38,258 bases of DNA, from contig CAMVAV010000017.1 of the NCBI GenBank assembly GCA_947165595.1, positions 1 through 38,258 on the forward strand, given 5' to 3'. Within the stretch, counting starts at the first letter, position 1. Every line of letters begins with the position of its first letter. The translations under genes were made by a program, and so were the position numbers. Of the stretch, positions 7,795 to 36,641 are shown in pieces. Source of the stretch: an uncultured Clostridia bacterium. GTDB lineage: Bacteria; Bacillota; Clostridia; Oscillospirales; Oscillospiraceae. Below the pieces are notes generated by a model. The model did no database searches. It had not been told where the DNA came from and saw nothing but the letters and a program-made list of their open reading frames with translations.

Positions 7795-9882
<2,088 letters not shown>

Positions 9883-21281: not shown

Positions 21282-22700
21282 TCACTTGCGCTCGGACTTC
21301 ATGATGCGCTTGTTGCGCGACATGATCATTTCGGCGCGGCGGTAGACCTGATCGATGTCCGTGTCCGCGTCGTCAAAGAACTCCGTCATGCCGGCGGCGG
21401 CGGAGCAGCGCTCCCACGGATCGACCTCCGTGTTGTCCTGCGCCTTGTAGAACTGCTCCTCCAGCACGGCGTACAGCTCGTCGCGATCACGGTAGGCGTC
21501 GCCCTGCAAAATGACCACGAAGTCGTCGCTGCCGACGCGGTAGACCGGGATCTCGCGATAGACCTGGCGGAGAATCTCGCAGCCGCTGATGATGTATTTG
21601 TTGCCGCCGTCCAGTCCGTAGATGTCGTTGATGCGCTTGAGGTCGTTGAGGTTGACCACGACGATCGCGACCTTCGTGTCGCCGTTTTTGATCGCCTCCG
21701 CGACCTCCGCCCGGCGCGCCTCGAAGGCGACCTTGCTGCCCGCCTTGGTCAGCGAGTCCTCATAGGCGAGCTTGGTGATGCCGGCGATCTCGCCCTCGGC
21801 GGCTTCGGCGCGCTTTTCCGCGCTGAGAATGTCCTCCACATAGGACTTCATGTCGTCCGACATCTGCTTGATCGCCATGCTGAGCGACTGTATTTCATTC
21901 TCCGTTTGGATGTTGGGCTGGTCGAAGGTCAGCACGTCGGCGATGTCCGCGCGGTTCTCATGGCTCTTCTGGGCAAAGCCGCGCGTGCTCTCCTCCAGCG
22001 CGAGCAGCGGGGAGGTGATGTTCTTTTGCAGCCAAAGCGACACGCCCAGCGCGAACAGAATGCCGATGAGCACCACCAGTATGACGCTGCGGACGATGTA
22101 GGTGTTGACGATCGCCTGCAGATCGTCGAGCGTCAGGTCGGCGCAGATCAGCGCCACACGCTCGCCGTCGGACGCCTGAATGGTCTTGCAGACCGTATAG
22201 CAGTTGCCCCAGTAGTCCGAGTAGCTCTTAAAATCGGTGAATTCGCCTGTCTTTTCCCACGCGTTGACGTAGGGGACGAGCTGCTCCGCCGTGTAGAAAT
22301 CGGGGTCGCCGAACATGATGGGATATTCTTCATCGCCCGCCTCGCGTTCCGCCTGACTGACGGAGGAGCAGACGCTGTACAGGATCCCATCCTCTGCGGA
22401 GGGGATGACGACATAGATGAATTCCACCTCGAAGTCGTCGACCATCGTGTTGAGCCGGCGCTGGAGCGCGTCGTACCTCTCCGAGGGCGTCCGCGTGCGG
22501 ATGCACTCGCGCAGGTCGTCCGCGTCCACCGTGTGCTCCACATAGGCCACGATATCCTTGAGATGGGCGTAATTCCGCTCGTCGAGCGACTGGTTGAGGA
22601 CGCTGGCGCTCTGAAACGACATCAGGGCGCACAAAATGGCTAAAAACAAGGTGCCGTAGATCAGCAGGCTGCGGCGGATGGGCTTTTTGCAGACAGTCAT
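21282..22700 (-). CDS. Membrane GGDEF-domain protein with degenerate signature
   Basis: This 472-aa sensor has TM1 at about residues 11-30, an extracytoplasmic sensor region of about 165 residues, TM2 near 196-217, a HAMP-like linker and a C-terminal GGDEF domain (about 305-460). Diguanylate cyclases make c-di-GMP from two GTP. Here the catalytic loop reads RVGSDDF (Gly390-Ser391-Asp392-Asp393-Phe394) instead of GGDEF. Both acidic positions stay acidic, but Glu is replaced by Asp and the second Gly by Ser, so activity is uncertain. No RxxD inhibitory site is evident. ATG 22700 is chosen over 22736 because GGAAGGAG lies 6 nt upstream. It heads the operon with degV. Confidence 0.85.
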   Translation of the reverse strand: MTVCKKPIRRSLLIYGTLFLAILCALMSFQSASVLNQSLDERNYAHLKDIVAYVEHTVDADDLRECIRTRTPSERYDALQRRLNTMVDDFEVEFIYVVIPSAEDGILYSVCSSVSQAEREAGDEEYPIMFGDPDFYTAEQLVPYVNAWEKTGEFTDFKSYSDYWGNCYTVCKTIQASDGERVALICADLTLDDLQAIVNTYIVRSVILVVLIGILFALGVSLWLQKNITSPLLALEESTRGFAQKSHENRADIADVLTFDQPNIQTENEIQSLSMAIKQMSDDMKSYVEDILSAEKRAEAAEGEIAGITKLAYEDSLTKAGSKVAFEARRAEVAEAIKNGDTKVAIVVVNLNDLKRINDIYGLDGGNKYIISGCEILRQVYREIPVYRVGSDDFVVILQGDAYRDRDELYAVLEEQFYKAQDNTEVDPWERCSAAAGMTEFFDDADTDIDQVYRRAEMIMSRNKRIMKSERK

Positions 22701-22751
22701 GACAGGCTCCTTCCCTTCATGTGAATCGTGGCGCAAAATATTCTAATCTGC

Positions 22752-22780
22752 ATTGTAGCACAATGAAAATGAATAATCAA
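22752..22780 (-). promoter_or_regulatory. Promoter of the GGDEF-degV operon
   Basis: On the minus strand: TTGATT (22780-22775), 17 bp, TACAAT (22757-22752), with a TGC extended -10. Predicted leader is about 45 nt to the ATG at 22700. Confidence 0.75.
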
Positions 22781-22817
22781 CTTCGGTTTTCCTTCATTCA
22801 TATTTTCAAAAAAACAC

Positions 22818-22846
22818 TTGACAGGGAAATGGCAAAACGATACACT
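22818..22846 (+). promoter_or_regulatory. Promoter of the glycine cleavage operon
   Basis: TTGACA (22818-22823), 17 bp, TACACT (22841-22846). It gives a leader of about 170 nt before the first gene at 23027. It is divergent from the GGDEF promoter, with about 37 bp between the -35 boxes. Confidence 0.8.
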
Positions 22847-22852
22847 GAATAC

Positions 22853-23026
22853 ACAAAAGAAGGGGGAAGAACTGCCCTTATGATTGTTGAAACCGCGAAG
22901 AAAAAGCGCGGATTTTTGTTGAAAACATCAAATGGGATAGAAAAAGGGGCTTTTCTGCCCTTTTTGTTTTGAATCGAGGAATCACATGCAAAACATGTTA
23001 TTGAATGAGGAAAGGGAGGCACATCA
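22853..23026 (+). promoter_or_regulatory. Long leader of the gcv operon with possible attenuator
   Basis: The leader holds a 5-bp GC hairpin (22893-22897 with 22907-22911) followed by five T, then the intrinsic terminator at 22941-22970. CTGCCCTT occurs at 22872-22879 and again at 22955-22962, where it forms the right arm of the terminator. The upstream copy could therefore pair with the same left arm (22946-22950 region), allowing alternative folds. A 30-codon frame (22880-22972) overlaps the hairpins but has no well-placed ribosome binding site. No glycine or THF riboswitch core is recognisable. The regulatory role is inferred. Confidence 0.5.
22941..22970 (+). terminator. Intrinsic terminator inside the gcv leader
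   Basis: AAAAAGGGGC (22941-22950) pairs with GCCCTTTTT (22957-22965) with one bulged G and a TTTTCT loop, followed by GTTTT. It lies downstream of the promoter and upstream of the first gene, the layout expected for premature termination control. Confidence 0.7.
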
Positions 23027-25675
23027 ATGAGCGAACTCAAACGGACCCAGCTTTACGACACCCACGTGGCGGCAGGGGCGACCATGGTCGACTTCGGCGG
23101 ATGGGAAATGCCCATCAAGTACCCCAGCGACATCGTCGCCGAGCATCTTTACACCCGGCATTTCTGCTCCCTGTTCGACGTGTCCCACATGGGACGCCTT
23201 CTGGTCGAGGGGCCGGACCGCGTCAAGTTCCTGCAGCACGTCCTCACGAGCAACGTCGCGGGACTGGACCTCAACAAGGCGCAGTACTGCATCATCCCCG
23301 ACGAGAACGGCTGCGCCATCGACGACGCGTACCTCTATCGCTTCGAGGAGGAGCGCTTCCTGCTCGTCGTCAACGCGGCGAACACGGACAAGGACCTTGC
23401 CCACCTCATGCCGATCGTTGAAAAATATGACTGCAAGCTGACGAACATCACCGCCGACTGGGCGGCGATCGCCGTGCAGGGGCCGAAGAGCAAGGAGCTG
23501 ATGATGACGCTCTCGGGCGGAGAGGCTGTCACCGAGCCGATGAAAAACGCCCTCAACACGCTCGAGCTGGAGGGGCACCTCGCCCGCGTCGCCAAGACCG
23601 GCTACACAGGCGAGCCGCTCGGCTACGAGGTCTATGTCAGGTCCGCCGACGCCAAGTGGCTGTGGGACCGCCTTTGCGAGCTGGGCGCGAAGCCCGCGGG
23701 CCTGGGCGCGCGCGACACGCTGCGTCTGGAGGCGGGCATGCCGCTCTACGGACACGAGATGGGCGTCGATCCCGACGGCGTGCCGATGCCGATCTTCTCC
23801 GTATCGCTGGCGAAGTTCGCCGTCAGCTTCTCCGACCTCAAGGGCGACTACATCGGCCGCAAGGCGCTGGAAAAGCAGAGCGAGACCTTCAAGCGCATCC
23901 AGAACCGCGACTTCTCCGACATGAGCGCGGTGCCCAAGTCCATCCGCCCCATCGCGCTGCTCGAGCGCGGCGTCATGCGCGCCGGCATGGAGGTCTTCCG
24001 CAACGGCGAGAAGATCGGCTGGGTCACCAGCGGCACGATGGTCCCCTACTACAAGGCGGAGGGCGAGGGGCTTGAGACCGTCATCACCGACGAGGTCGTC
24101 AAGCGCGCCATCGGCACCTGCTACATTGCGAGCGACGTGCTCGAGGATGACACGGTCGAGGTCGACGTGCGCGGCAAGCGCGTCAAGGCGGTCATCCCCG
24201 CGCGCCATCTGGACACCATGGCGCCGCCGTTCGCGCGCCCGATCGTCTACGGCGTGGAGCTGAGCAAACGCGCCGAGAGCAGCGAGGGGCGTCCGGCGCG
24301 CGCGCTGGAGCTTTTGAAGCGCGCGGAGGAGAACCACATCTGGCGCCAGAAGAAGTGCGTCAACCTCATCCCCTCCGAGAATACGCCCAGCCACGCCGTG
24401 CAGACGCTCTGCGCCAGCGATCCCTGCTGCCGCTACGCCGAGCACAAGAAGGTCAAGTCCTTCTACGACAAGGATATCTTCTATTATCAGGGCACCGGCT
24501 TCATCGACGAGGTCGAGCAGCTCGCCGTCGAGGAGCTGAAGAAGTACTTCGGCTGCACCGAGGTCGAGACCCGCGTCATCAGCGGCCAGATGTCCAACAT
24601 GTGCGTGTTCTCCGCGCTGATGGACTGGAAGAACCGCCTCGATCGCAAGCACACGCCGCAGCGTCTGGGCTACGTGCTCAACAACCACATCATCAAGGGC
24701 GGCCACCTCTCCGCGCAGCCGATGGGCGCGCTGCACGACTACATCGCGGTCGACCCCGTCACCGAGCGCAGCGCGGTCGTCAACTTCCCGGTGTGCAAGG
24801 ACGACATCTTCCGCATCGACGTGGAGGAGACCAAGAAGGTCATCGACGAGTACCGTCCCGAGTTCATCATCTTCGGCAAGAGCATGGTGCTGCGCAAGGA
24901 GCCGGTCGCGGAGATCCGCAAGTATGTCGACGAGCAGGGCATCCCCACCACGATCATGTACGATATGGCGCACGTCCTCGGCCTTGTGGGCGACTACTTC
25001 CAGAAGCCCTTCGAGGAGGGCGCGGAGATCGTCACCGGTTCGACACACAAGACCTTCTTCGGCCCGCAGCGCGGCCTGGTCGCGGTGAACTACAAGGAGG
25101 ACGAGCTCAAGTACGGCCTGTGGGAGACCATTGAAAACCGCGCCTTCCCGGGCAGCGTCTCCAACCACCACCTCGGCACGCAGCTCGGCCTTCTGATGGC
25201 GGTGTACGAGATGAACCACTTCAAGGACCAGTACCAGAAGGCGGTCATCGAGAACGCCAAGAGCTTCGCCAAGTCCCTCAAGGCGCAGGGGCTGAACGTC
25301 TGCGGCGACCCGTCCATCGGCTACACCGAGACGCATCAGGTCATCGTCTCCGTCGGCTACGGCGAGGGCGCGGAGATCGCGAGCCGCCTCGAGAAGAACA
25401 ACGTCATCGTCAACTATCAGGCAACGCCCGACGAGGAGGGCTTCACCGCCTCCGGCGCGCTGCGCATGGGCGTGAGCGAGATGACCCGCTTCGGCTTCGG
25501 CGCGGAGGACTTCGACAAGCTCGCGCAGCTGATGGCGGACTGCATCCTGCGCAACAAGGACGTCTCCGAGGACGTCACGAAGCTGCGCGCCGCGCACACC
25601 GAGATGCGCTACTGCTTCGACGACGCGCAGTTTGACGCGGCGCTTAACGAGCTGGCGTCGAAGATCGGCTTCTGA
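23027..25675 (+). CDS. GcvT-serine hydroxymethyltransferase fusion protein
   Basis: This 882-aa protein joins two enzymes in one uninterrupted frame. Residues 1 to about 405 are the glycine cleavage T-protein (aminomethyltransferase): [11 protein letters not shown], the FDVSHMGR motif and the conserved acidic pair in NGCAIDD. After a short linker (about 405-420), residues to 882 form a divergent serine hydroxymethyltransferase. [23 protein letters not shown] (His560), YDMAHV (Asp646, His649), [12 protein letters not shown] with the PLP Lys675, and ALRMG all align with SHMT active-site blocks. The first half would make 5,10-methylene-THF and the second would use it with another glycine to form serine. 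AAAGGGAGG supports the start. Another PLP aldolase function for the second half cannot be excluded. Confidence 0.9.
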
Positions 25676-25719: not shown

Positions 25720-26100
25720 ATGAATTACCCGACTGATCTCAAGTATTCCAAGTCCCACGAGTGGGTGCGCATGGAGGACGGCGTCGCCGTCATCGGCATC
25801 TCCGACTTTGCCCAGAGCGAGCTGGGCGACGTGGTGTTCATCAACCTGCCCGAGGTCGGCGACGACACCACCGCGGGCGAGCCCTTCGGCGACGTCGAGT
25901 CCGTCAAGGCGGTCAGCGACCTGATCAGCCCCGTCAGCGGCTCGGTCTGCGCCATCAACGAGGAGCTGCTGGACGCGCCCGAGAAGCTCAACGAGAACCC
26001 CTACGGCGCGTGGATCATCAAGGTCGAGAACGTGGGCGACCAGGAGGAGCTGCTGGACGCCGAGGCCTACGAGAAGCACTGCGCCGAGGAAAAGGGCTGA
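25720..26100 (+). CDS. gcvH: Glycine cleavage system H protein
   Basis: GcvH (126 aa) is the lipoylated shuttle that carries the aminomethyl group from P-protein to T-protein and is re-oxidised by Lpd. The lipoyl attachment site is Lys63 in [11 protein letters not shown]. The N-terminal [13 protein letters not shown] and the [12 protein letters not shown] segment near the C-terminal end are family hallmarks. The length is standard. The ATG follows TAAGGAGG at good spacing, 44 bp after the fusion gene. No lipoate ligase or lipoate synthase is in the window, so the lipoyl group must come from enzymes elsewhere. Confidence 0.97.
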
Positions 26101-26133: not shown

Positions 26134-27447
26134 ATGAGCTATGTACCTTCCACGGCGGAGCAGCGCCAGGAAATGCTCCGCACGGTCGGGGTGCAGGACT
26201 ACCGCGGCCTGTACCGCGACGTGCCGCAGCAGATGCTGCTGGACCGCCCGCTGGATATCCCGGAGGGGATGAGCGAATTCGAGGTCACGCGCGCGATGAC
26301 CGCCATGGCGGCAAAGAACGTCGTGTTTCCGACCGTTCTGCGCGGCGCGGGCTCCTATGACCACTACATCCCCGCGGTGGTGAAATCCATCCCCGCGAAG
26401 GAGGAGTTCCTGACCGCCTACACGCCCTATCAGGCGGAGATGAGCCAGGGCGTGCTCCAGTCCATCTTCGAGTATCAGACCATGATCTGCGAGCTGACGG
26501 GCATGGAGGTCTCCAACGCGTCCGTCTACGACGGGGCGACCGCCGCCGCGGAGGCCGCCGCCATGTGCCGCGACCGCAAGCGCCGCGTGACGCTGATCTC
26601 CGGCGCGGCGAACCCCGACGTCATCAACACCGTGCGCACCTACTGCTACGGCACGGGCGACGAGCTGAAGGTCGTTCCGGCGAAGGACGGCAGGACCGAT
26701 CCGGACGCGCTGCGCGAGCTGCTCGGCGACGGCGTCTCCGCGTTCATCGTCCAGCAGCCGAACTTCTACGGCCAGCTCGAGGACGTCGAGGCGCTGGGCA
26801 AGCTCGCCCATGAGGCGGGCGCGATGTACGTCATGAGCTGCAACCCGATCTCGCTGGGCATCCTCAAGACCCCGCGGGAGTGCGGCGCGGACGTCGCCGT
26901 GGGCGAGGGGCAGCCGCTCGGTATGCCGATGGGCTTCGGCGGCCCGTACCTCGGCTTCATGGCGACCACCGAAAAGCATATGCGCAAGCTGCCCGGGCGC
27001 ATCGTCGGCGAGACCGTCGACAGCAAGGGCGAGCGGGCGTACGTCCTTTCGCTCCAGGCGCGCGAGCAGCACATCCGCCGCGAAAAGGCGAGCAGCAACA
27101 TCTGCTCGAACGAGGCGCTGTGCGCGCTGACCGCCGGCGTCTACCTCGCGACGATGGGTCCCGGCGGGCTCGCCGAGGCGGCGAAGCAGTCGATGGCGAA
27201 GGCGCACTACCTCTGCAGCGGGCTGACCGCGATCGAGGGCGTGGAGCTGGTCTACAAGGGCGACTTCTTCCATGAGTTTGTCACCACCATGCCTAGGCGC
27301 AACGAGGTGCTTGCCGAGCTGGAGCGCGCCGGGATCCTCGGCGGCCTGCCGGTGGAGGAGGGGCTCCTCTGGTGCGCGACCGAGAAGGTCGGAAAGGCCG
27401 AGCTCGACAGGGCGATCGGCATCGTGAAGGAGGTGCTGGCGAAATGA
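26134..27447 (+). CDS. gcvPA: Glycine dehydrogenase (decarboxylating) subunit 1
   Basis: GcvPA (437 aa) is the N-terminal-type half of the P-protein, which with GcvPB decarboxylates glycine on PLP and loads the remaining methylamine on GcvH. It has the expected YVPSTAEQRQEMLRTVGV start, the RGAGSYDHYIPAVVKSI block and the QGVLQSIFEYQTMICELTGM block. As expected for this subunit, it lacks the PLP-binding lysine motif, which is in GcvPB. AAGGAGG lies before ATG 26134. Its TGA overlaps the ATG of gcvPB (ATGA), indicating translational coupling and equal production of the two subunits. The split P-protein is typical of Firmicutes and Thermotogae. Confidence 0.96.
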   Translation: MSYVPSTAEQRQEMLRTVGVQDYRGLYRDVPQQMLLDRPLDIPEGMSEFEVTRAMTAMAAKNVVFPTVLRGAGSYDHYIPAVVKSIPAKEEFLTAYTPYQAEMSQGVLQSIFEYQTMICELTGMEVSNASVYDGATAAAEAAAMCRDRKRRVTLISGAANPDVINTVRTYCYGTGDELKVVPAKDGRTDPDALRELLGDGVSAFIVQQPNFYGQLEDVEALGKLAHEAGAMYVMSCNPISLGILKTPRECGADVAVGEGQPLGMPMGFGGPYLGFMATTEKHMRKLPGRIVGETVDSKGERAYVLSLQAREQHIRREKASSNICSNEALCALTAGVYLATMGPGGLAEAAKQSMAKAHYLCSGLTAIEGVELVYKGDFFHEFVTTMPRRNEVLAELERAGILGGLPVEEGLLWCATEKVGKAELDRAIGIVKEVLAK

Positions 27448-28847
27448 AGCTGATTTTCGAGAAGAGCGTTGCGGGCCGGCACTGCGACCTGCTGCCCAAG
27501 TGCGACGTGGAGTATGTCGAGGTCCCCGCGGCGTTCAAGCGCGAGACCGCGCCCGCGCTCCCCGAGCTGAGCGAGGTCGACGTCGCGCGCCACTACACCG
27601 AGCTGGATCACCGCGTCCACGGCGTCAACTGCGGCTTCTATCCGCTGGGCTCGTGCACGATGAAGTACAATCCCCGCATCGACGAGGACATGGCGGCTCT
27701 GCCCGGCTTCACGGGCGTCCACCCGCTCGCGCCCGCCGATACGGTCAAGGGCTGCCGCGAGGTGCTGGACACCGCGGCGAAGTACCTGTGCGAGATCACG
27801 GGCATGGACGGCATGACCTTCCAGCCCGCCGCCGGCGCGCACGGCGAATTCACCGGCGTGCTGCTGATCAAGCAGTACCACGACAAGCGCGGCGACAAGA
27901 AGCGCACGAAGATCATCGTGCCCGACTCCGCCCACGGCACCAACCCCGCCACGGCGGCGATGTGCGGCTTCGAGGTCGTGAACATCCCCTCCGCGCCGAA
28001 CGGCTGCGTCGATCTGGAGGCGCTCAAGAGCGTGCTGGGCGACGACACGGCGGGCCTGATGCTCACCAACCCCAACACGGTCGGCATCTTCGACGAGAAC
28101 ATCCTCGAGATCACGCGCCTCGTCCATGAGGCGGGCGGCCTGTGCTACTACGACGGCGCGAACCTCAACGCCGTCATGGGCGTCGTGCGCCCGGGCGACA
28201 TGGGCTTCGACTGCATCCATATGAACCTGCACAAGACCTTCGCGACCCCGCACGGCGGCGGCGGCCCCGGCGCCTGCGCCGTCGGCTGCAAGGAGTTTTT
28301 GCGCGAGTTCCTGCCCGCCTCCGTGCTGATGCAGGGCAAGGGACGCCTCCAGGTGCGCGCGTTCGCGGGCAACTTCCTGGTCGTCGTCCGCGCGCTGACC
28401 TATCTGCTGACGCTGGGGCGCGAGGGTGTGCCCGAGGCGGCGCAGAACGCGGTGCTCAACGCCAACTACCTGATGCAGCGCATCAAGGGCACCTTCGAGC
28501 CCGCCTTCGACCGCATCTGCATGCACGAGTTCGTGCTCGACCTGAGCGAGTTCAAGAAGGAGACGGGCGTGAGCGCGCTCGACGTGGCAAAGTCGCTCAT
28601 CGACTACGGCATGCATCCGCCGACGATGTACTTCCCGATGATCGTCCACGAGGCGCTGATGCTCGAGCCCACCGAGACCGAGAGCAAGGAGACGCTGGAC
28701 TGGGCGGCGGACGTGTTCCGCAAGCTCTACGAGCTCGGCAAGACCGATCCGCAGTACATGCACGACGCGCCGCACCACGCCCAGATCGGGCGCCCGGACG
28801 AGGTCCGCGCCGCGCGCCAGCCCATCCTGCGCTGGCAAAAGGCCTGA
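27444..28847 (+). CDS. gcvPB: Glycine dehydrogenase (decarboxylating) subunit 2
   Basis: GcvPB (467 aa) is the PLP-carrying subunit of the split P-protein. The cofactor lysine is Lys264 in NLHKTFATPHGGGGPG. The N-terminal YPLGSCTMKYNPR and the QPAAGAHGEFTG and DSAHGTNPATAAM blocks are diagnostic. Position 27444 is the true start because it overlaps the gcvPA stop by 4 nt and gives the normal MKLIFEKS start; the open frame extends further upstream only inside gcvPA. A very stable UUCG hairpin lies 27 bp after the stop, before lpd. Confidence 0.96.
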   Translation: MKLIFEKSVAGRHCDLLPKCDVEYVEVPAAFKRETAPALPELSEVDVARHYTELDHRVHGVNCGFYPLGSCTMKYNPRIDEDMAALPGFTGVHPLAPADTVKGCREVLDTAAKYLCEITGMDGMTFQPAAGAHGEFTGVLLIKQYHDKRGDKKRTKIIVPDSAHGTNPATAAMCGFEVVNIPSAPNGCVDLEALKSVLGDDTAGLMLTNPNTVGIFDENILEITRLVHEAGGLCYYDGANLNAVMGVVRPGDMGFDCIHMNLHKTFATPHGGGGPGACAVGCKEFLREFLPASVLMQGKGRLQVRAFAGNFLVVVRALTYLLTLGREGVPEAAQNAVLNANYLMQRIKGTFEPAFDRICMHEFVLDLSEFKKETGVSALDVAKSLIDYGMHPPTMYFPMIVHEALMLEPTETESKETLDWAADVFRKLYELGKTDPQYMHDAPHHAQIGRPDEVRAARQPILRWQKA

Positions 28848-28945: not shown

Positions 28946-30334
28946 ATGAATGATTATCAGCTCATCGTCGTCGGCGCGGGGCCGGGCGGTTACACCGCGG
29001 CGCTGCGCGCGGCGAAGCTCGGGCTCAAGACCGCCGTCGTCGAGGCGCGGGAGGCGGGCGGCACCTGCCTCAACCGCGGCTGCGTGCCGACCAAGACGCT
29101 GCTCCACTCCTCGGAGGCGTACAAGGCTGCGACGGCGAGCGCCGCCATCGGCATCCATGTCGAGGGCGCGCGCGCCGATATGGAGGAGATCTTCGCCTTC
29201 AAGCGCCGCGTCTCGCAGACGCTGTCGCAGGGGGTGGAGAGCCTGCTCAAGAGCGCGAAGGTCCCGCTGCTGCGCGGGCGCGCGCAGATCACCGCGCCGC
29301 ACGCCGTCCGCGTGACCGCGGAGGACGGAACGACGGCGGACTACACTGCGGATTACATCCTCGTCGCCACCGGCTCCGTTCCGGCGCGCCCGCCGATCCC
29401 GGGGCTGGACCTGCCCGGCGTGATGACCAGCGACGAGCTGCTGGAGGGGACGGACCACCTCTACCGCTCCGTTATTATCATCGGCGGCGGCGTGATCGGC
29501 GTCGAGTTCGCGACGTTCTACGCCGAGCTCGGCAGCGCCGTGACGGTCATCGAGGGGCTGGACCGCCTGCTGCCGAACATGGACCGCGAGCTGGGGCAGA
29601 ACCTCGCGCTGATCCTCAAAAAGCAGGGCGTGCAGGTGTTCACGGGCTCCATGGTCAAAAACGTGGAGCAGGGCGCGGACGGCATGACGGTCAACTTCAC
29701 GACCAAGGATACGCCCAACGCCGTCACGGGCGAGGCGGTGCTCTGCGCCATCGGGCGCAGGCCCTACTGTGAAGGGCTGTTCGCGGAGGGGCTTTCGCCG
29801 GAGATGAACGGCAGGAGCCTCAAGGTGGACGAGCGCTATCAGACCAGCATCGAGGGCGTCTACGCCATCGGCGACGTCTCCTCGCGCATCCAGCTCGCGC
29901 ACGTCGCGGCGGCGCAGGGCACGGCGTGCGTCGAAATGCTCTGCGGCGTGGAGGATCACACGGATATGCGCGTGGTGCCGAGCTGCATCTACTCCCGCCC
30001 CGAGATCGCGGTCGTGGGCGTTACGGACGCCGAGGCGAAGGAGCAGGGCGTCCCGGTCAAGGTCGGCAAGTGCGTCATGGGCGCGAACGCCCGCACGCTG
30101 ATCGCCGATCCGGGCCGCAGCTTCATGAAGGTCGTCGCCCACGCGGAGACGGGCGCGCTCCTCGGCGCGCAGCTGATGTGCCCCAACGCGACGGATATGA
30201 TCTCCGAGCTCGGCGAGGCGATCGCCAACGGCATGACCGCGCGGCAGCTCCTGTGCGCGATGCGCCCGCACCCGACGTTCGAGGAGGCGCTGTCCGACGC
30301 GCTCTCGGACCTGTGCGCAAAGCTGGCAAAATAG
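28946..30334 (+). CDS. lpd: Dihydrolipoyl dehydrogenase (E3/L-protein)
   Basis: This 462-aa flavoprotein re-oxidises dihydrolipoyl-GcvH with NAD+. The FAD dinucleotide motif GAGPGG is at residues 10-15. The redox disulfide is Cys41/Cys46 in GGTCLNRGCVPTK. A second GGGVIGVEFATFYAELG motif binds NAD. The C-terminal catalytic pair is His442/Glu447 in HPTFEE. No N-terminal lipoyl domain is fused. The gene could also serve other lipoamide complexes, but its place directly after gcvPB assigns it to glycine cleavage. AGGGGAG lies upstream of the ATG. Confidence 0.95.
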   Translation: MNDYQLIVVGAGPGGYTAALRAAKLGLKTAVVEAREAGGTCLNRGCVPTKTLLHSSEAYKAATASAAIGIHVEGARADMEEIFAFKRRVSQTLSQGVESLLKSAKVPLLRGRAQITAPHAVRVTAEDGTTADYTADYILVATGSVPARPPIPGLDLPGVMTSDELLEGTDHLYRSVIIIGGGVIGVEFATFYAELGSAVTVIEGLDRLLPNMDRELGQNLALILKKQGVQVFTGSMVKNVEQGADGMTVNFTTKDTPNAVTGEAVLCAIGRRPYCEGLFAEGLSPEMNGRSLKVDERYQTSIEGVYAIGDVSSRIQLAHVAAAQGTACVEMLCGVEDHTDMRVVPSCIYSRPEIAVVGVTDAEAKEQGVPVKVGKCVMGANARTLIADPGRSFMKVVAHAETGALLGAQLMCPNATDMISELGEAIANGMTARQLLCAMRPHPTFEEALSDALSDLCAKLAK

Positions 30335-32660: not shown

Positions 32661-35600
32661 TCAATTCAGCAGCTCGCTGATCTGATCCCAGTCGAAATTA
32701 TCCGCCGCGGCGCAAATCTTCTCGCAGCGCTCGCGCTCGCCGTCCGGGATGCGGTGGCGGGCGAGGTGGTCCGTGATGAACGAAACGCTGTCGTAATCCA
32801 TGCTCTCCAGCACCTCGCGCAGCAAGCCGTAAGCCTCGCTCAGCTCCGCCTCGGAGATCAGCGGAAGCTCCTCCTCCGTCGCCTTTTGCTCGCAAAGCGG
32901 GGCGAGCCGCTTGCCCAGCACACGGAAGCGCTCCAGCAGATCGCCCAGCTCGGTGCGCAGCGTCTCCGTGTCGCCCGCCTTGCCCGCGAGCTCCAGCTTT
33001 TCCGCGAACGCGCCCAACTCCTCCGCGCCGACGGCGCGGGAGGTGCTTTTGAGCGCGTGGACCTTGACCGTCGTGTTGTCCACATCGCCCGCGTTCCAGT
33101 AGCTTTCGATCTCGTCCGCGCTCGCCGCGACGGACTCCGCGTAGATCTTCAGCGTGCTGAGGTAGGTCTCCTCCGTGCCGCAGTGGCGGACGCCCTGCTC
33201 CACGTCCAGCCCGTCGACCTCATAGAGCCAGCCGGGAAGCTCGGCGGGCGGCTCCTCCTCTTCCGACGCATTGGGCTCCGCGCCCGCCGGAGCGGGGGAG
33301 GGAGCAGGCTCGGGCTGCTGCTCCGCGAGGGCCCAGAGCCGGTCGCTGCCCTTCCAGACGCGGATGTCCGCGCCGCGCTCGTTCATGATGTAATCCGTGT
33401 CCTCGTCGATCATCCGCAGCATGACCCTGGCGATCTCCGGGTCGAACTGCGTGCCGGCGCAGCGCTCGATCTCCGCGCGCACCGCCGACTGCGCGCGCGG
33501 CGTGGAGTAGGTGCGCGTCGAGGTCATGGCGTCGTAGCAGTCCGCGAGGCAGATGATGCGCGCCGCCTCGGGGATCGCCTCGCCCTTGAGAGCGTCGGGA
33601 TAGCCCGTGCCGTCGTATTTCTCATGGTGGGAGCGCGCGCCGTCCGCCAGCTCCGGCATGTCCGTGATGATGCGCAGGATCTCGCTGCCGACGACAGTGT
33701 GGCGCTTGATCTTCTCAAATTCCTCGTCCGTCAGGCGCGCGGCCTTGTTGATGATCTCCTCCGGCACGCCGATCTTGCCGATGTCGTGCATCAGGCCCAT
33801 CTCGTAGATTTGCTCCTGCTCCCGCGTGCTCTTGCCCATGCGGCGGGCGATTTCGGCGGAGTACGCCGCGACGCGCTGGGAGTGGCCGTTGGTGTAGTGG
33901 TCCTTGGCGTCGACCGCCTTTGACAGCGCGAGCATCATTTCCCTGGTCAGCCGCGAGGCGCGCAGCGTCTGCCGCCGCACCTCCTGCTGCAGGCCCGCCT
34001 GCAGACGGTTCAGCTCGATGATCCGCCGCGTGCGCTGGAGCAGCACATCGGGTACGAAGGGCTTTCGCACGAAGTCCGCCGCGCCGAGGCGGAAGCCCTG
34101 GATCTCGGCGTCCTCGTTCTTCTCGCCGGTGAGGAAGACCACGGGGATGGCGCTCGTCGCCGGACGCGCGCGCAGCGCCTCCAGCACCTCGAAGCCGCTC
34201 GTCCCGCCCAGGTTGATGTCCAGCAGGATCAGACCGGGACGCAGCGCCTCCGCCCGCCTGACCGCCGTTTCGCCGTTCGTGCAGGATTCGACGCGGAAGC
34301 TTTTGCCGAGGATCTCGCCCGCCAGATGGCAGATCAGCTCGTCGTCGTCGATGACGAGGACGGTCGCCTTCTCCGGCGCGGAGGAGGCGGGCGCGTTTGC
34401 CTCCGCGGGGGCGGACAGCTTCTCCGGCGGCAGCAGCTCCCGGAGCAGCTTTTCCAGCTTCCGTCCGTCGACAGGCTTGGAGAGATAGTCCGAGAAGCCC
34501 GCCTCCAGATAGCGCTCGCGTGAACCGGAGATGGCGTTGGCGGTCAGCGCGACGCAGGGCACGTCCCGCATCTCCGGCAGCTTGCGCAGCTCGTGCAGGG
34601 TCTCGATGCCGTCCATCTCCGGCATCATGTGGTCGAGCAGGATCACGTCGTAGTGCTGCTCCTTCACCATCGCGAGCGCCTTTTTGCCCGAATTCACCGT
34701 GTCGATCTGCAGCTTTGTCCGCTTGAGAAGGCCGCGGATGACGTTCAGGTTTACCTCCGTGTCGTCGACGACGAGGACGTGCGCCTCCGGGGCGTGGAAC
34801 AGCTCGTGATAGCCTCGGCTGCCCGCGCCGTTTCGGTCGAGACGGCAGGAGAGGCGGCCCACGCCGTCCCACTTGATGACGGTCTGCTCCACGGCGAAGG
34901 AGAACGTCGAGCCTTCGCCGTAGACGCTCTGCACCTGCAGCTCGCTGCCCATCAGGTCCAGGAGCTGACGCGTGATGCTCATGCCGAGTCCCGTCCCCTC
35001 GATGGAGCGGTTGCGTTTTTCCTCGATGCGGGAGAAGGGGGAGAAGAGCTTGTCCATATCCTCCGCCTTCATGCCGATGCCGGTGTCGCGCACGACGAAT
35101 TTGAGCGAGACGCGCCTGTCGTCCAGCTTTTCGTAGCCGATCTCCAGCGTCACCGAGCCCTTTTCCGTGTACTTGACGGCGTTGGTCAGGATGTTCAGCG
35201 CGCACTGGCGGATGCGGATTTCGTCGCCGAGGAGCAGGTGCGGCGTGCTTTCGTCCACGTTTACCTCAAAGCGCAGGTTCTTGTCCTCCGCGCGCTTGAG
35301 GATCATGTTCATCAGGTCGTTGATGACCGAGCTGAGATCGTACTGGATCGGGATGATCTCCATTTTGCCCTCTTCGACCTTGGAGAAGTCCAGAATGTCG
35401 TTGATGAGCGAGAGCAGCGTCTTTCCGGCGCTCTGGATGTCGGCGGCGTAACCCAGCGTCTCCTGCTCGCCGCACTCGCGCAGGATCATCTCGTCCATGC
35501 CGAGGATGGCGTTGATGGGCGTGCGAATTTCGTGGGACATGTTGGCGAGGAAGGAGGATTTCGCGTGGTTCGCCGCGTCCGCCAGCTCCTTCTGCTCCCT

Positions 35601-36581
35601 GAGCTCCTCCATGTACCGGAAGTGCTCGGTGTCGTCTATCAGGACGAAGAGCGACCCGCAGGATACGCCGGACTGGTAGAGCGGGTTTTCCTGCGGCGTA
35701 TAGATGTGGTCGTCCAGCTTCAGCGGCTCACCCGAGGCGATCGCCGCGCGCAGCATGTCCAGCACCGGTTTTTCTTTCGTCCGAAGCTCGGGGAAGAGCC
35801 GCTTGGCCGGCGTGTTGTAGTAGTCGACCTTCCCGTTGCAGCCCACGGCGATGATCGCCTCTGACAGCTCGTCCATGACGTAGTCCCGCGCGAGCTGCAT
35901 CGTGTCGAGCAGGTCATAGCGGAAGATCGCGATGAACAGAAAGACCGTGCTGATGGTGTAGCCGAGCGCCGTGCAGTCGTAGCCCTGCGTGAGCTTGAGG
36001 GAGTAGAGCCCGAAGAAGGCGCTGTCGGCAAGAAAGGCGAGAATAATCATCAGCAGCCGCTTGCGCGAGGCGGGCTCCTTTTCCCTGTGCCGCTTGACGA
36101 GCAGGGCGCCGATGCCGAAGATCACATAGAAGACCAGAAGTCCCGTGTAGAAATGGTGCCAGATGCCGTTGCCGTGGATGAGCTGGGGAACGAGCTGGTC
36201 GTCCGTAAACTCCATGCTCGTGTAGAACAGATTGTTCCACCGCACCGTGAGGACCAGAACGAAGGTGGTCAGGTGCGCCGCCACCATGGCGAGCTTGAGC
36301 GGGCGGATCACGGGGATCCGGCACAGCTCCATGGCGAAGAGAAACAGGGAAAAGGGGATCCAGACCTTTCCCAGATAGGCGAGCTGGAGCGCGACGAGGT
36401 AGGCGTCCGGCGTATGAGCCTGCATCTGCATCAGATAGCCCGTGTTGCTCACGAGCGTGGCGATGCAGCTTAAAAACAGATAAGAGTGGAGGATGCCGCT
36501 CCACTTTTTGAAAATGACCACACATTCGATCACCAGCGCAAGCAGGCTGGCGTACTGGATCCCCAGCAGGATCTGATACAT
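32661..36581 (-). CDS. Membrane hybrid histidine kinase with two receivers, HD-GYP and Hpt domains
   Basis: This 1306-aa protein carries a whole phosphorelay. Its order is: an N-terminal seven-helix sensor region (about 1-230), a PAS-like segment (245-335), HisKA with His350 in NMSHEIRTP, HATPase with DTGIGM and GTGLGMS, and receiver 1 with Asp650 (LLDHMMPEMDG). Next come receiver 2 with Asp788 (LLDINLGGTSG), an HD-GYP domain (His932-Asp933 in HDIGKIGVP, then HHEKYDGTGYP), a Pro/Glu linker, and Hpt with His1175 (KVHALKSTSR), ending in an about 75-residue tail. HD-GYP domains hydrolyse c-di-GMP, and all its metal-site motifs look intact. The ATG at 36581 has AAAGGAG upstream and begins at the first helix; an upstream in-frame ATG at 36635 lacks such a site. 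Confidence 0.9.
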   Translation of the reverse strand: MYQILLGIQYASLLALVIECVVIFKKWSGILHSYLFLSCIATLVSNTGYLMQMQAHTPDAYLVALQLAYLGKVWIPFSLFLFAMELCRIPVIRPLKLAMVAAHLTTFVLVLTVRWNNLFYTSMEFTDDQLVPQLIHGNGIWHHFYTGLLVFYVIFGIGALLVKRHREKEPASRKRLLMIILAFLADSAFFGLYSLKLTQGYDCTALGYTISTVFLFIAIFRYDLLDTMQLARDYVMDELSEAIIAVGCNGKVDYYNTPAKRLFPELRTKEKPVLDMLRAAIASGEPLKLDDHIYTPQENPLYQSGVSCGSLFVLIDDTEHFRYMEELREQKELADAANHAKSSFLANMSHEIRTPINAILGMDEMILRECGEQETLGYAADIQSAGKTLLSLINDILDFSKVEEGKMEIIPIQYDLSSVINDLMNMILKRAEDKNLRFEVNVDESTPHLLLGDEIRIRQCALNILTNAVKYTEKGSVTLEIGYEKLDDRRVSLKFVVRDTGIGMKAEDMDKLFSPFSRIEEKRNRSIEGTGLGMSITRQLLDLMGSELQVQSVYGEGSTFSFAVEQTVIKWDGVGRLSCRLDRNGAGSRGYHELFHAPEAHVLVVDDTEVNLNVIRGLLKRTKLQIDTVNSGKKALAMVKEQHYDVILLDHMMPEMDGIETLHELRKLPEMRDVPCVALTANAISGSRERYLEAGFSDYLSKPVDGRKLEKLLRELLPPEKLSAPAEANAPASSAPEKATVLVIDDDELICHLAGEILGKSFRVESCTNGETAVRRAEALRPGLILLDINLGGTSGFEVLEALRARPATSAIPVVFLTGEKNEDAEIQGFRLGAADFVRKPFVPDVLLQRTRRIIELNRLQAGLQQEVRRQTLRASRLTREMMLALSKAVDAKDHYTNGHSQRVAAYSAEIARRMGKSTREQEQIYEMGLMHDIGKIGVPEEIINKAARLTDEEFEKIKRHTVVGSEILRIITDMPELADGARSHHEKYDGTGYPDALKGEAIPEAARIICLADCYDAMTSTRTYSTPRAQSAVRAEIERCAGTQFDPEIARVMLRMIDEDTDYIMNERGADIRVWKGSDRLWALAEQQPEPAPSPAPAGAEPNASEEEEPPAELPGWLYEVDGLDVEQGVRHCGTEETYLSTLKIYAESVAASADEIESYWNAGDVDNTTVKVHALKSTSRAVGAEELGAFAEKLELAGKAGDTETLRTELGDLLERFRVLGKRLAPLCEQKATEEELPLISEAELSEAYGLLREVLESMDYDSVSFITDHLARHRIPDGERERCEKICAAADNFDWDQISELLN

Positions 36582-36641
36582 GGGGGAATCTCCTTTGCCA
36601 AGTTGTACAAGGTATACTACACCAATTCTATCCAATATAGG

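Follow-up and report, generated by a model that had tools for sequence, protein, structure and literature searches.

In a 38,258-nt stretch of DNA from an uncultured Clostridia bacterium of the family Oscillospiraceae (contig CAMVAV010000017.1; hereafter the window), we analyzed a gene in which a T-protein (GcvT) of the glycine cleavage system (GCS) is continued by a domain resembling serine hydroxymethyltransferase (SHMT), an enzyme that carries pyridoxal phosphate (PLP). The gene and its parts lie at the following positions of the window:

23027..25675, + strand: GcvT-SHMT fusion gene, 882 aa; a single open reading frame (ORF) with an ATG start, the stop codon included and no internal stops
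23027..24232, + strand: T-protein half, residues 1-402
24233..24289, + strand: inter-domain linker, about residues 403-421 (about 20 residues), the gap between the structural matches
24290..25672, + strand: SHMT-like half, archaeal-type, residues 422-882 (by Pfam SHMT, the best PDB sequence match and the tree)
24443..24481, + strand: loop 1, residues 473-485, between the catalytic Glu and a Tyr-Tyr pair, with a 7-residue insertion in the alignments
25049..25051, + strand: PLP lysine K675, a Lys in 76/76 fusions
25412..25423, + strand: NYQA motif, N796-A799, replacing the canonical NKN folate motif (alignment of 76 fusions)

Architecture and conservation of the fusion

The first-pass annotation of this DNA had proposed that a full GcvT and a full SHMT-like domain are fused in one frame, and this was confirmed by the ORF, by Pfam and by the relatives. 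In the 882-aa protein, Pfam recognized GCV_T at residues 9-246 (259 bits), GCV_T_C (39.6 bits) and SHMT at residues 435-835 (151 bits), and the residues named in that annotation for the second domain (K675, H560, D646, H649 and the substrate Arg, R813) were all present. In the predicted structure, the linker had a per-residue confidence (pLDDT) below 50 at residues 407-411; identity over residues 401-432 was 41-75% across 16 relatives. The T half passed the GcvT profile TIGR00528 (EC 2.1.2.10) with 257.1 bits (cut-off 235.85). The counterpart of the E. coli folate-site residue D97 (the D97N mutant appears in the title of PDB 3a8k) is D99 or D100; both were invariant in 30 aligned fusions, and the DD motif was found in 72 of 73 sequences. 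Compared with an ordinary GcvT (TIGR00528), the fusion bears a second enzyme domain of 460 residues, and its T lineage was separate (100/100) from that of five ordinary GcvTs of the same family. Of 30 carrier genomes, 24 had no GCV_T match besides the fusion, and a P-protein was found in 27 of 28 (a set that partly overlaps the 30). The exception, G028 (L080, CP070673.1, the single-contig chromosome of a metagenome-assembled genome), has the fusion and GcvH, with no P-protein match.

Relatives were taken as the best 80 of 189 from one scan of genome contigs. Both halves were present in one full-length frame in 72 of these 80; the other eight were cut by a contig end (L049, L051, L053, L058 and L059) or frame-broken (L050, L057 and L081). 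The frame of L057 breaks at about position 9837 and those of L050 and L081 close to the 5′ end, and these copies may be pseudogenes or products of sequencing error; L050 is the same place as G319, a genome with a broken fusion. According to record titles, the carriers belong to about six phylum-level groups, i.e., Bacillota, Thermodesulfobacteriota/Deltaproteobacteria, Actinomycetota (Thermoleophilia), Planctomycetota, Firestonebacteria and Abyssobacteria, a tally from which L052 (titled Calditrichales) was left out. The SHMT half was detected in 38 of the 400 genomes sampled from the window's family (E ≤1e-80), and 4 of 196 genomes of its class matched (E ≤1e-60), every frame being 884-894 aa. 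In the phylum of G028, 28 of 198 sampled genomes matched at E ≤1e-50, and 15 of these matches lay in open frames of 886-1112 aa, long enough by frame length to be fusions. The complete O. valericigenes genome carries a full-length fusion. Among plasmid records, 263 matched; one of the 30 listed is a fusion (78.8% identical, the only one at ≥60%), and the other 29 listed were annotated as SHMT or had no feature name. Vescimonas fastidiosa strain MM35 (source Homo sapiens, presumably of gut origin) encodes an 881-aa fusion, WP_212821284.1, annotated only as GcvT. A natural GcvT-SHMT fusion might have been well described already, as the first-pass annotation had cautioned; judged by titles and abstract openings, no such description was recognized in the open-licence literature.

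For the SHMT half the ratio of non-synonymous to synonymous substitution rates (dN/dS) lay between 0.07 and 0.21, and for the T half between 0.12 and 0.20 (15 measurable of 16 close-relative pairs; the values are rough where dS >1). Purifying selection acts on both halves. In the window's family, fusion-type T-proteins without the SHMT half are located beside gcvPA and gcvPB at L142:5458-6699, L143:5082-6395 and L144:5396-6601. The same T type without the SHMT half was found in a GCS operon in three genomes of this family (G237, G274 and G287); since these T-only proteins nest among the fused ones, the SHMT half has been lost at least two times in the family.

Lineage and active site of the SHMT half

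The best PDB sequence match of the second half was the M. jannaschii SHMT (194 bits, the other SHMTs listed scoring ≤106), which was also the nearest SHMT-fold chain by Z, and the half passed Pfam PF00464 with 150.8 bits (gathering score 27). A tree was built from 52 SHMT domains, comprising 26 chosen fusions, 13 archaeal-type domains (M. jannaschii included) and 13 canonical ones. The fused halves formed one clade (94/97; a single clade in 88% of the bootstrap trees) beside the standalone protein L140 and within the archaeal-type group; between that group and canonical GlyA lies a 100/100 branch. The tree thereby bears out the earlier suggestion that the SHMT half is a distinct clade. The motif THKTFFGPQ is not a peculiarity of the fusion, as a comparable motif is present in the M. 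jannaschii SHMT. Since the fused halves sit within the archaeal-type group, the motif was inherited from that lineage, of which it is a mark. That the half is instead a fast-evolving GlyA was rejected, given its place in the archaeal-type clade and the 100/100 branch.

Compared with the archaeal-type SHMT (M. jannaschii, 4bhd/4uqv), the fusion is joined to a T-protein, has the 7-residue insertion in loop 1 and further insertions, carries NYQ in place of NKN and forms its own clade. The canonical bacterial GlyA (NF000586) has its fold and catalytic residues in common with the fused half; it is set apart by the 100/100 branch and by a profile score of 271 bits against a cut-off of 335, and is often a separate gene of the same genome. 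The standalone sister of the fused halves, L140:6341-7798, is a 486-aa SHMT with the NYQA motif, and no GCS gene was found within its 14-kb stretch; it is either a pre-fusion form or a split-off half. Eleven further standalone archaeal-type SHMT loci (L130-L139 and L141) occur in genomes of the phylum of G028, and the neighbours of L130 and L137 (a PPDK_N protein, HAD, amidohydrolase and SpoU methylase) suggested no clear function. In two standalone archaeal-type SHMTs a TAG was considered as a pyrrolysine codon, and this was rejected because it follows the open frame and is the terminal stop.

Active-site residues were surveyed in 76 fusions (the window, 72 scan loci and 3 later ones). Nine positions were identical in all 76, namely the equivalents of Y55, E57, Y65, H126, S175, D200, H203, K229 and R363, in E. 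coli SHMT numbering. Residues for PLP, catalysis and the substrate carboxylate were invariant or nearly so, and 76/76 have the set expected of an SHMT, namely the PLP Lys, the PLP-binding Asp and His, the catalytic Glu and the substrate Arg. In soybean SHMT8, the side chains touching the pteridine ring are N374, E61, Y69 and H134 (PMC11366715). Matched by motif, the Glu, Tyr and His of these contacts appear to be kept in the fusions, and the Asn is a Gln in 76/76, which keeps the amide. The Lys beside the pterin Asn is replaced by Tyr (72 of the 76 fusions), Phe (3) or X (1). Loop 2 is shortened and loop 1 is longer by its insertion; such loops have been assigned to folate binding in SHMTs and to substrate specificity in threonine transaldolases (PMC10495429).

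Operon and folate context

The fusion gene is preceded in the window by a promoter and a leader and followed by the remaining GCS genes, so that the GcvT partners gcvH and gcvP are present in its operon:

22818..22846, + strand: sigma-70-like promoter, TTGACA-17-TACACT (consensus scan)
22942..22965, + strand: terminator-like hairpin in the leader of the fusion gene (consensus scan)
25720..26100, + strand: gcvH (NCBIfam TIGR00527, 146.5 bits, cut-off 115.85)
26134..27447, + strand: gcvPA (NCBIfam NF001696, 566 bits)
27444..28847, + strand: gcvPB (NCBIfam NF003346, 682 bits; start inferred from the translation, the listed ORF running from 27372)
28946..30334, + strand: lpd, dihydrolipoyl dehydrogenase (NCBIfam TIGR01350, 475 bits)

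The promoter stretch (22809-22857) was 84% identical to the relative L004, in which a similar hairpin stretch aligned by eye; terminator-like sites numbered 10 in the whole window, with 6.0 expected. L004, the nearest relative (93% identical protein), has a glycine riboswitch. When L004:7620-7910 was compared with window positions 22850-22970, the window's leader was about 200 bases shorter, with the promoter and the terminator-like hairpin kept and the aptamer not found. The folding of this leader was no better than that of shuffles (z -0.73), and a tetrahydrofolate (THF) riboswitch was not detected in the window. Among 30 relatives' loci, a glycine riboswitch lay ahead of the fusion or the operon in 19 (2/5, 8/8, 8/8 and 1/9 by locus set, the last set being outside the window's close kin); in L052, L055 and L148 it precedes the operon's gcvH, and in L067 another frame intervenes. 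A THF riboswitch was found near the fusion in 2 of these 30. Glycine riboswitches usually switch on glycine disposal, and the cleavage direction is therefore favoured.

The gene context was examined in 85 stretches, many of which are short and cut by a contig end; 80 come from the scan and 5 were added later, one of these (L149) repeating L052. GcvH, GcvPA or GcvPB was found near the fusion in 57 of the 85. In four (L027, L035, L036 and L057, the last with a frame-broken fusion), genes for formate-THF ligase, FolD, FchA, a formate channel and FolC lie upstream; this set is the formate entry of the reductive glycine pathway, and such operons fit the synthesis direction. A gene for 5-formyl-THF cyclo-ligase, which removes a by-product of SHMT, was present in 6 of the 85. 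At L150:4314-9259 (Vescimonas fastidiosa), a homocysteine S-methyltransferase-family protein, a cobalamin-dependent protein and an amidohydrolase are encoded upstream of the fusion, hinting at the entry of methyl groups into the same folate pool. Elsewhere in the window, positions 32661-36635 (- strand) encode a 1324-aa hybrid sensor with 7TM, HisKA, HATPase, receiver, HD and Hpt domains.

Proposed function and rival explanations

We consider it probable that the gene encodes a bifunctional T-protein/SHMT, in which a working SHMT of archaeal lineage is coupled to glycine cleavage or to its reverse. The T half would free ammonia from the aminomethyl-lipoyl H-protein and load the carbon onto THF, and the SHMT half would combine the resulting methylene-THF with a second glycine to give serine. 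Together with the P-, H- and L-proteins, the sum would be the conversion of two glycines into serine, CO2, NH3 and NADH, and under reducing, formate-fed conditions this sum would run in reverse. In some relatives the fused half would be the only SHMT of the cell. The proposal builds on the observed architecture, conservation, purifying selection, catalytic residues and GCS operon, and on an association with the absence of GlyA in one family. From these features we infer both activities, the direction of flux and dimerisation via the SHMT half; that the half has SHMT activity is suggested by several lines of evidence. The short linker and the shared cofactor make a direct hand-over of methylene-THF plausible. 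A bolder version, in which the polypeptide channels a glycine-to-serine (or formate-fed) step through a remodelled folate pocket and, being self-sufficient, has displaced GlyA several times in gut bacteria, we hold only tentatively and rather doubt. The interpretation given in the first-pass annotation is, in sum, partly supported; it had also named a lack of SHMT activity in the second domain as a possible refutation, and there the catalytic residues are retained.

No canonical GlyA was found in the window's assembly, which is 78% complete. It was missing in 21 of the 38 carriers of the window's family. Among good-quality genomes (≥90% complete, ≤5% contaminated) it was missing in 17 of 29 carriers and in 6 of 62 non-carriers (Fisher p = 1.6e-6), a comparison of unequal draws, as the carriers come from 400 genomes (several per genus) and the non-carriers from 101 (about one per genus), with genomes that are not independent through kinship. 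These 29 carriers include some with a cut or broken fusion (e.g., G319, G585 and G684). Restricting the count to the 101-genome draw left 4 good-quality carriers, 3 of them without GlyA; GlyA-less carriers occur in 9 of the 13 carrier genera, and one of them, G553, is rated 100% complete in 2 contigs. The T-only genomes G237, G274 and G287 and the broken-fusion genome G319 all have a canonical GlyA. Such a pattern would be expected of a fused half able to take over from GlyA, and it is not proof of one.

Several points weigh against the bifunctional enzyme, beginning with the unequal draws and the kinship just described. A canonical GlyA was also present in 12 of the 29 good-quality family carriers and in 22 of 30 carriers of the wider set chosen from the scan (called at >400 bits), the complete O. 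valericigenes genome included; hence the fused half is often not needed as a general SHMT. (Among the eight others, G025 has a 58-position GlyA fragment, and the two sets overlap, G001, G004, G007 and G010 being G718, G591, G623 and G254 by their coordinates.) The idea that the fusion replaced GlyA everywhere was rejected on these grounds, with a clear association confined to the window's family, and the search for a separate glyA proposed in the first-pass annotation gave a divided yet informative answer: none in the window's assembly or in 17 of 29 family carriers, and one in most carriers of the wider set. Within the window's genus, 3 of 3 carriers and 2 of 6 non-carriers lacked GlyA, which is not significant (p = 0.17), and since 6 of 62 non-carriers lack it as well, its absence is no proof of replacement. 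The half scored below the cut-off of the NCBIfam SHMT model NF000586 (271.3 bits against 335), as did the two relatives scanned (236 and 263 bits); of four standalone relatives, three archaeal-type ones passed (369-408) and L140 failed (258). The equivalent of Asn347 is Gln, both folate loops are remodelled, and the active-site loops of the SHMT half had pLDDT <50 in the predicted structure. In the window no glycine riboswitch was found at the gathering score, nor any at E ≤5 in 22700-23100, and the T half could by itself account for the folate context.

The main rival to SHMT activity is that the SHMT-fold half is an aldolase or transaldolase, which would turn threonine or another beta-hydroxy amino acid into glycine and an aldehyde and so feed the GCS. 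Judged by profile scores, fold match and residues, we regard it as unlikely. The transaldolase profile TIGR04506 gave 156.4 bits against a cut-off of 650, compared with 271 against 335 for the SHMT model; TIGR04506 is a 609-position model of a longer fluorothreonine enzyme and says nothing on ObaG-type enzymes, a type for which the scan offered no model. The pterin-contact Glu, Tyr and His reported for SHMT8 are kept, the exchange of Asn for Gln retains the amide, the M. jannaschii SHMT is closest both in sequence among solved relatives and in Z among SHMT-fold chains, and family carriers are more often without GlyA than non-carriers. Compared with the L-threonine transaldolases (ObaG/ObiH, 7k34; TIGR04506), the fusion lies amid GCS and folate genes, whereas the described transaldolases lie in natural-product clusters (PMC5490192).

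A less likely explanation is that the SHMT half is catalytically dispensable and serves the T-protein as a dimerising or glycine-sensing domain. Its repeated loss in the window's family speaks for this, because the T half stayed in a GCS operon and hence works without its partner. Against it, an inactive sensor need not keep all contacts, and here little or no variation was seen across the 76 sequences at the PLP Lys, the acid-base Glu, and the contacts to pterin and carboxylate, dN/dS is low to the same degree in both halves, and GlyA is present in all three cases of loss. That two ordinary genes were joined by chance or by assembly, with no functional meaning, is so improbable as to be negligible: beyond the few broken copies (L057, L081 and L050) nothing supports it, and an assembly artefact, which the first-pass annotation had considered, is excluded by the 72 of 80 loci, complete O. 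valericigenes genome included, that are full-length in a single frame. The single clade in the SHMT tree (94/97) and the purifying selection on both halves likewise speak against a chance joining, and the conservation is far beyond chance.

Plant photorespiration, glycine fermentation and the reductive glycine pathway all use T-protein and SHMT one after the other, with methylene-THF as the compound common to both. With a natural, conserved fusion, a single recombinant protein would suffice to test for methylene-THF channelling, and a ready module becomes available for engineering the assimilation of formate or CO2. There is also an annotation gap, as the fusion is labelled only GcvT in one annotated record; label-based metabolic models may consequently score genomes that rely on it as lacking SHMT. 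The bacterium of the window is related to animal-gut bacteria, and the same fusion is found in many other bacteria, in which it may at times take the place of the usual serine enzyme.
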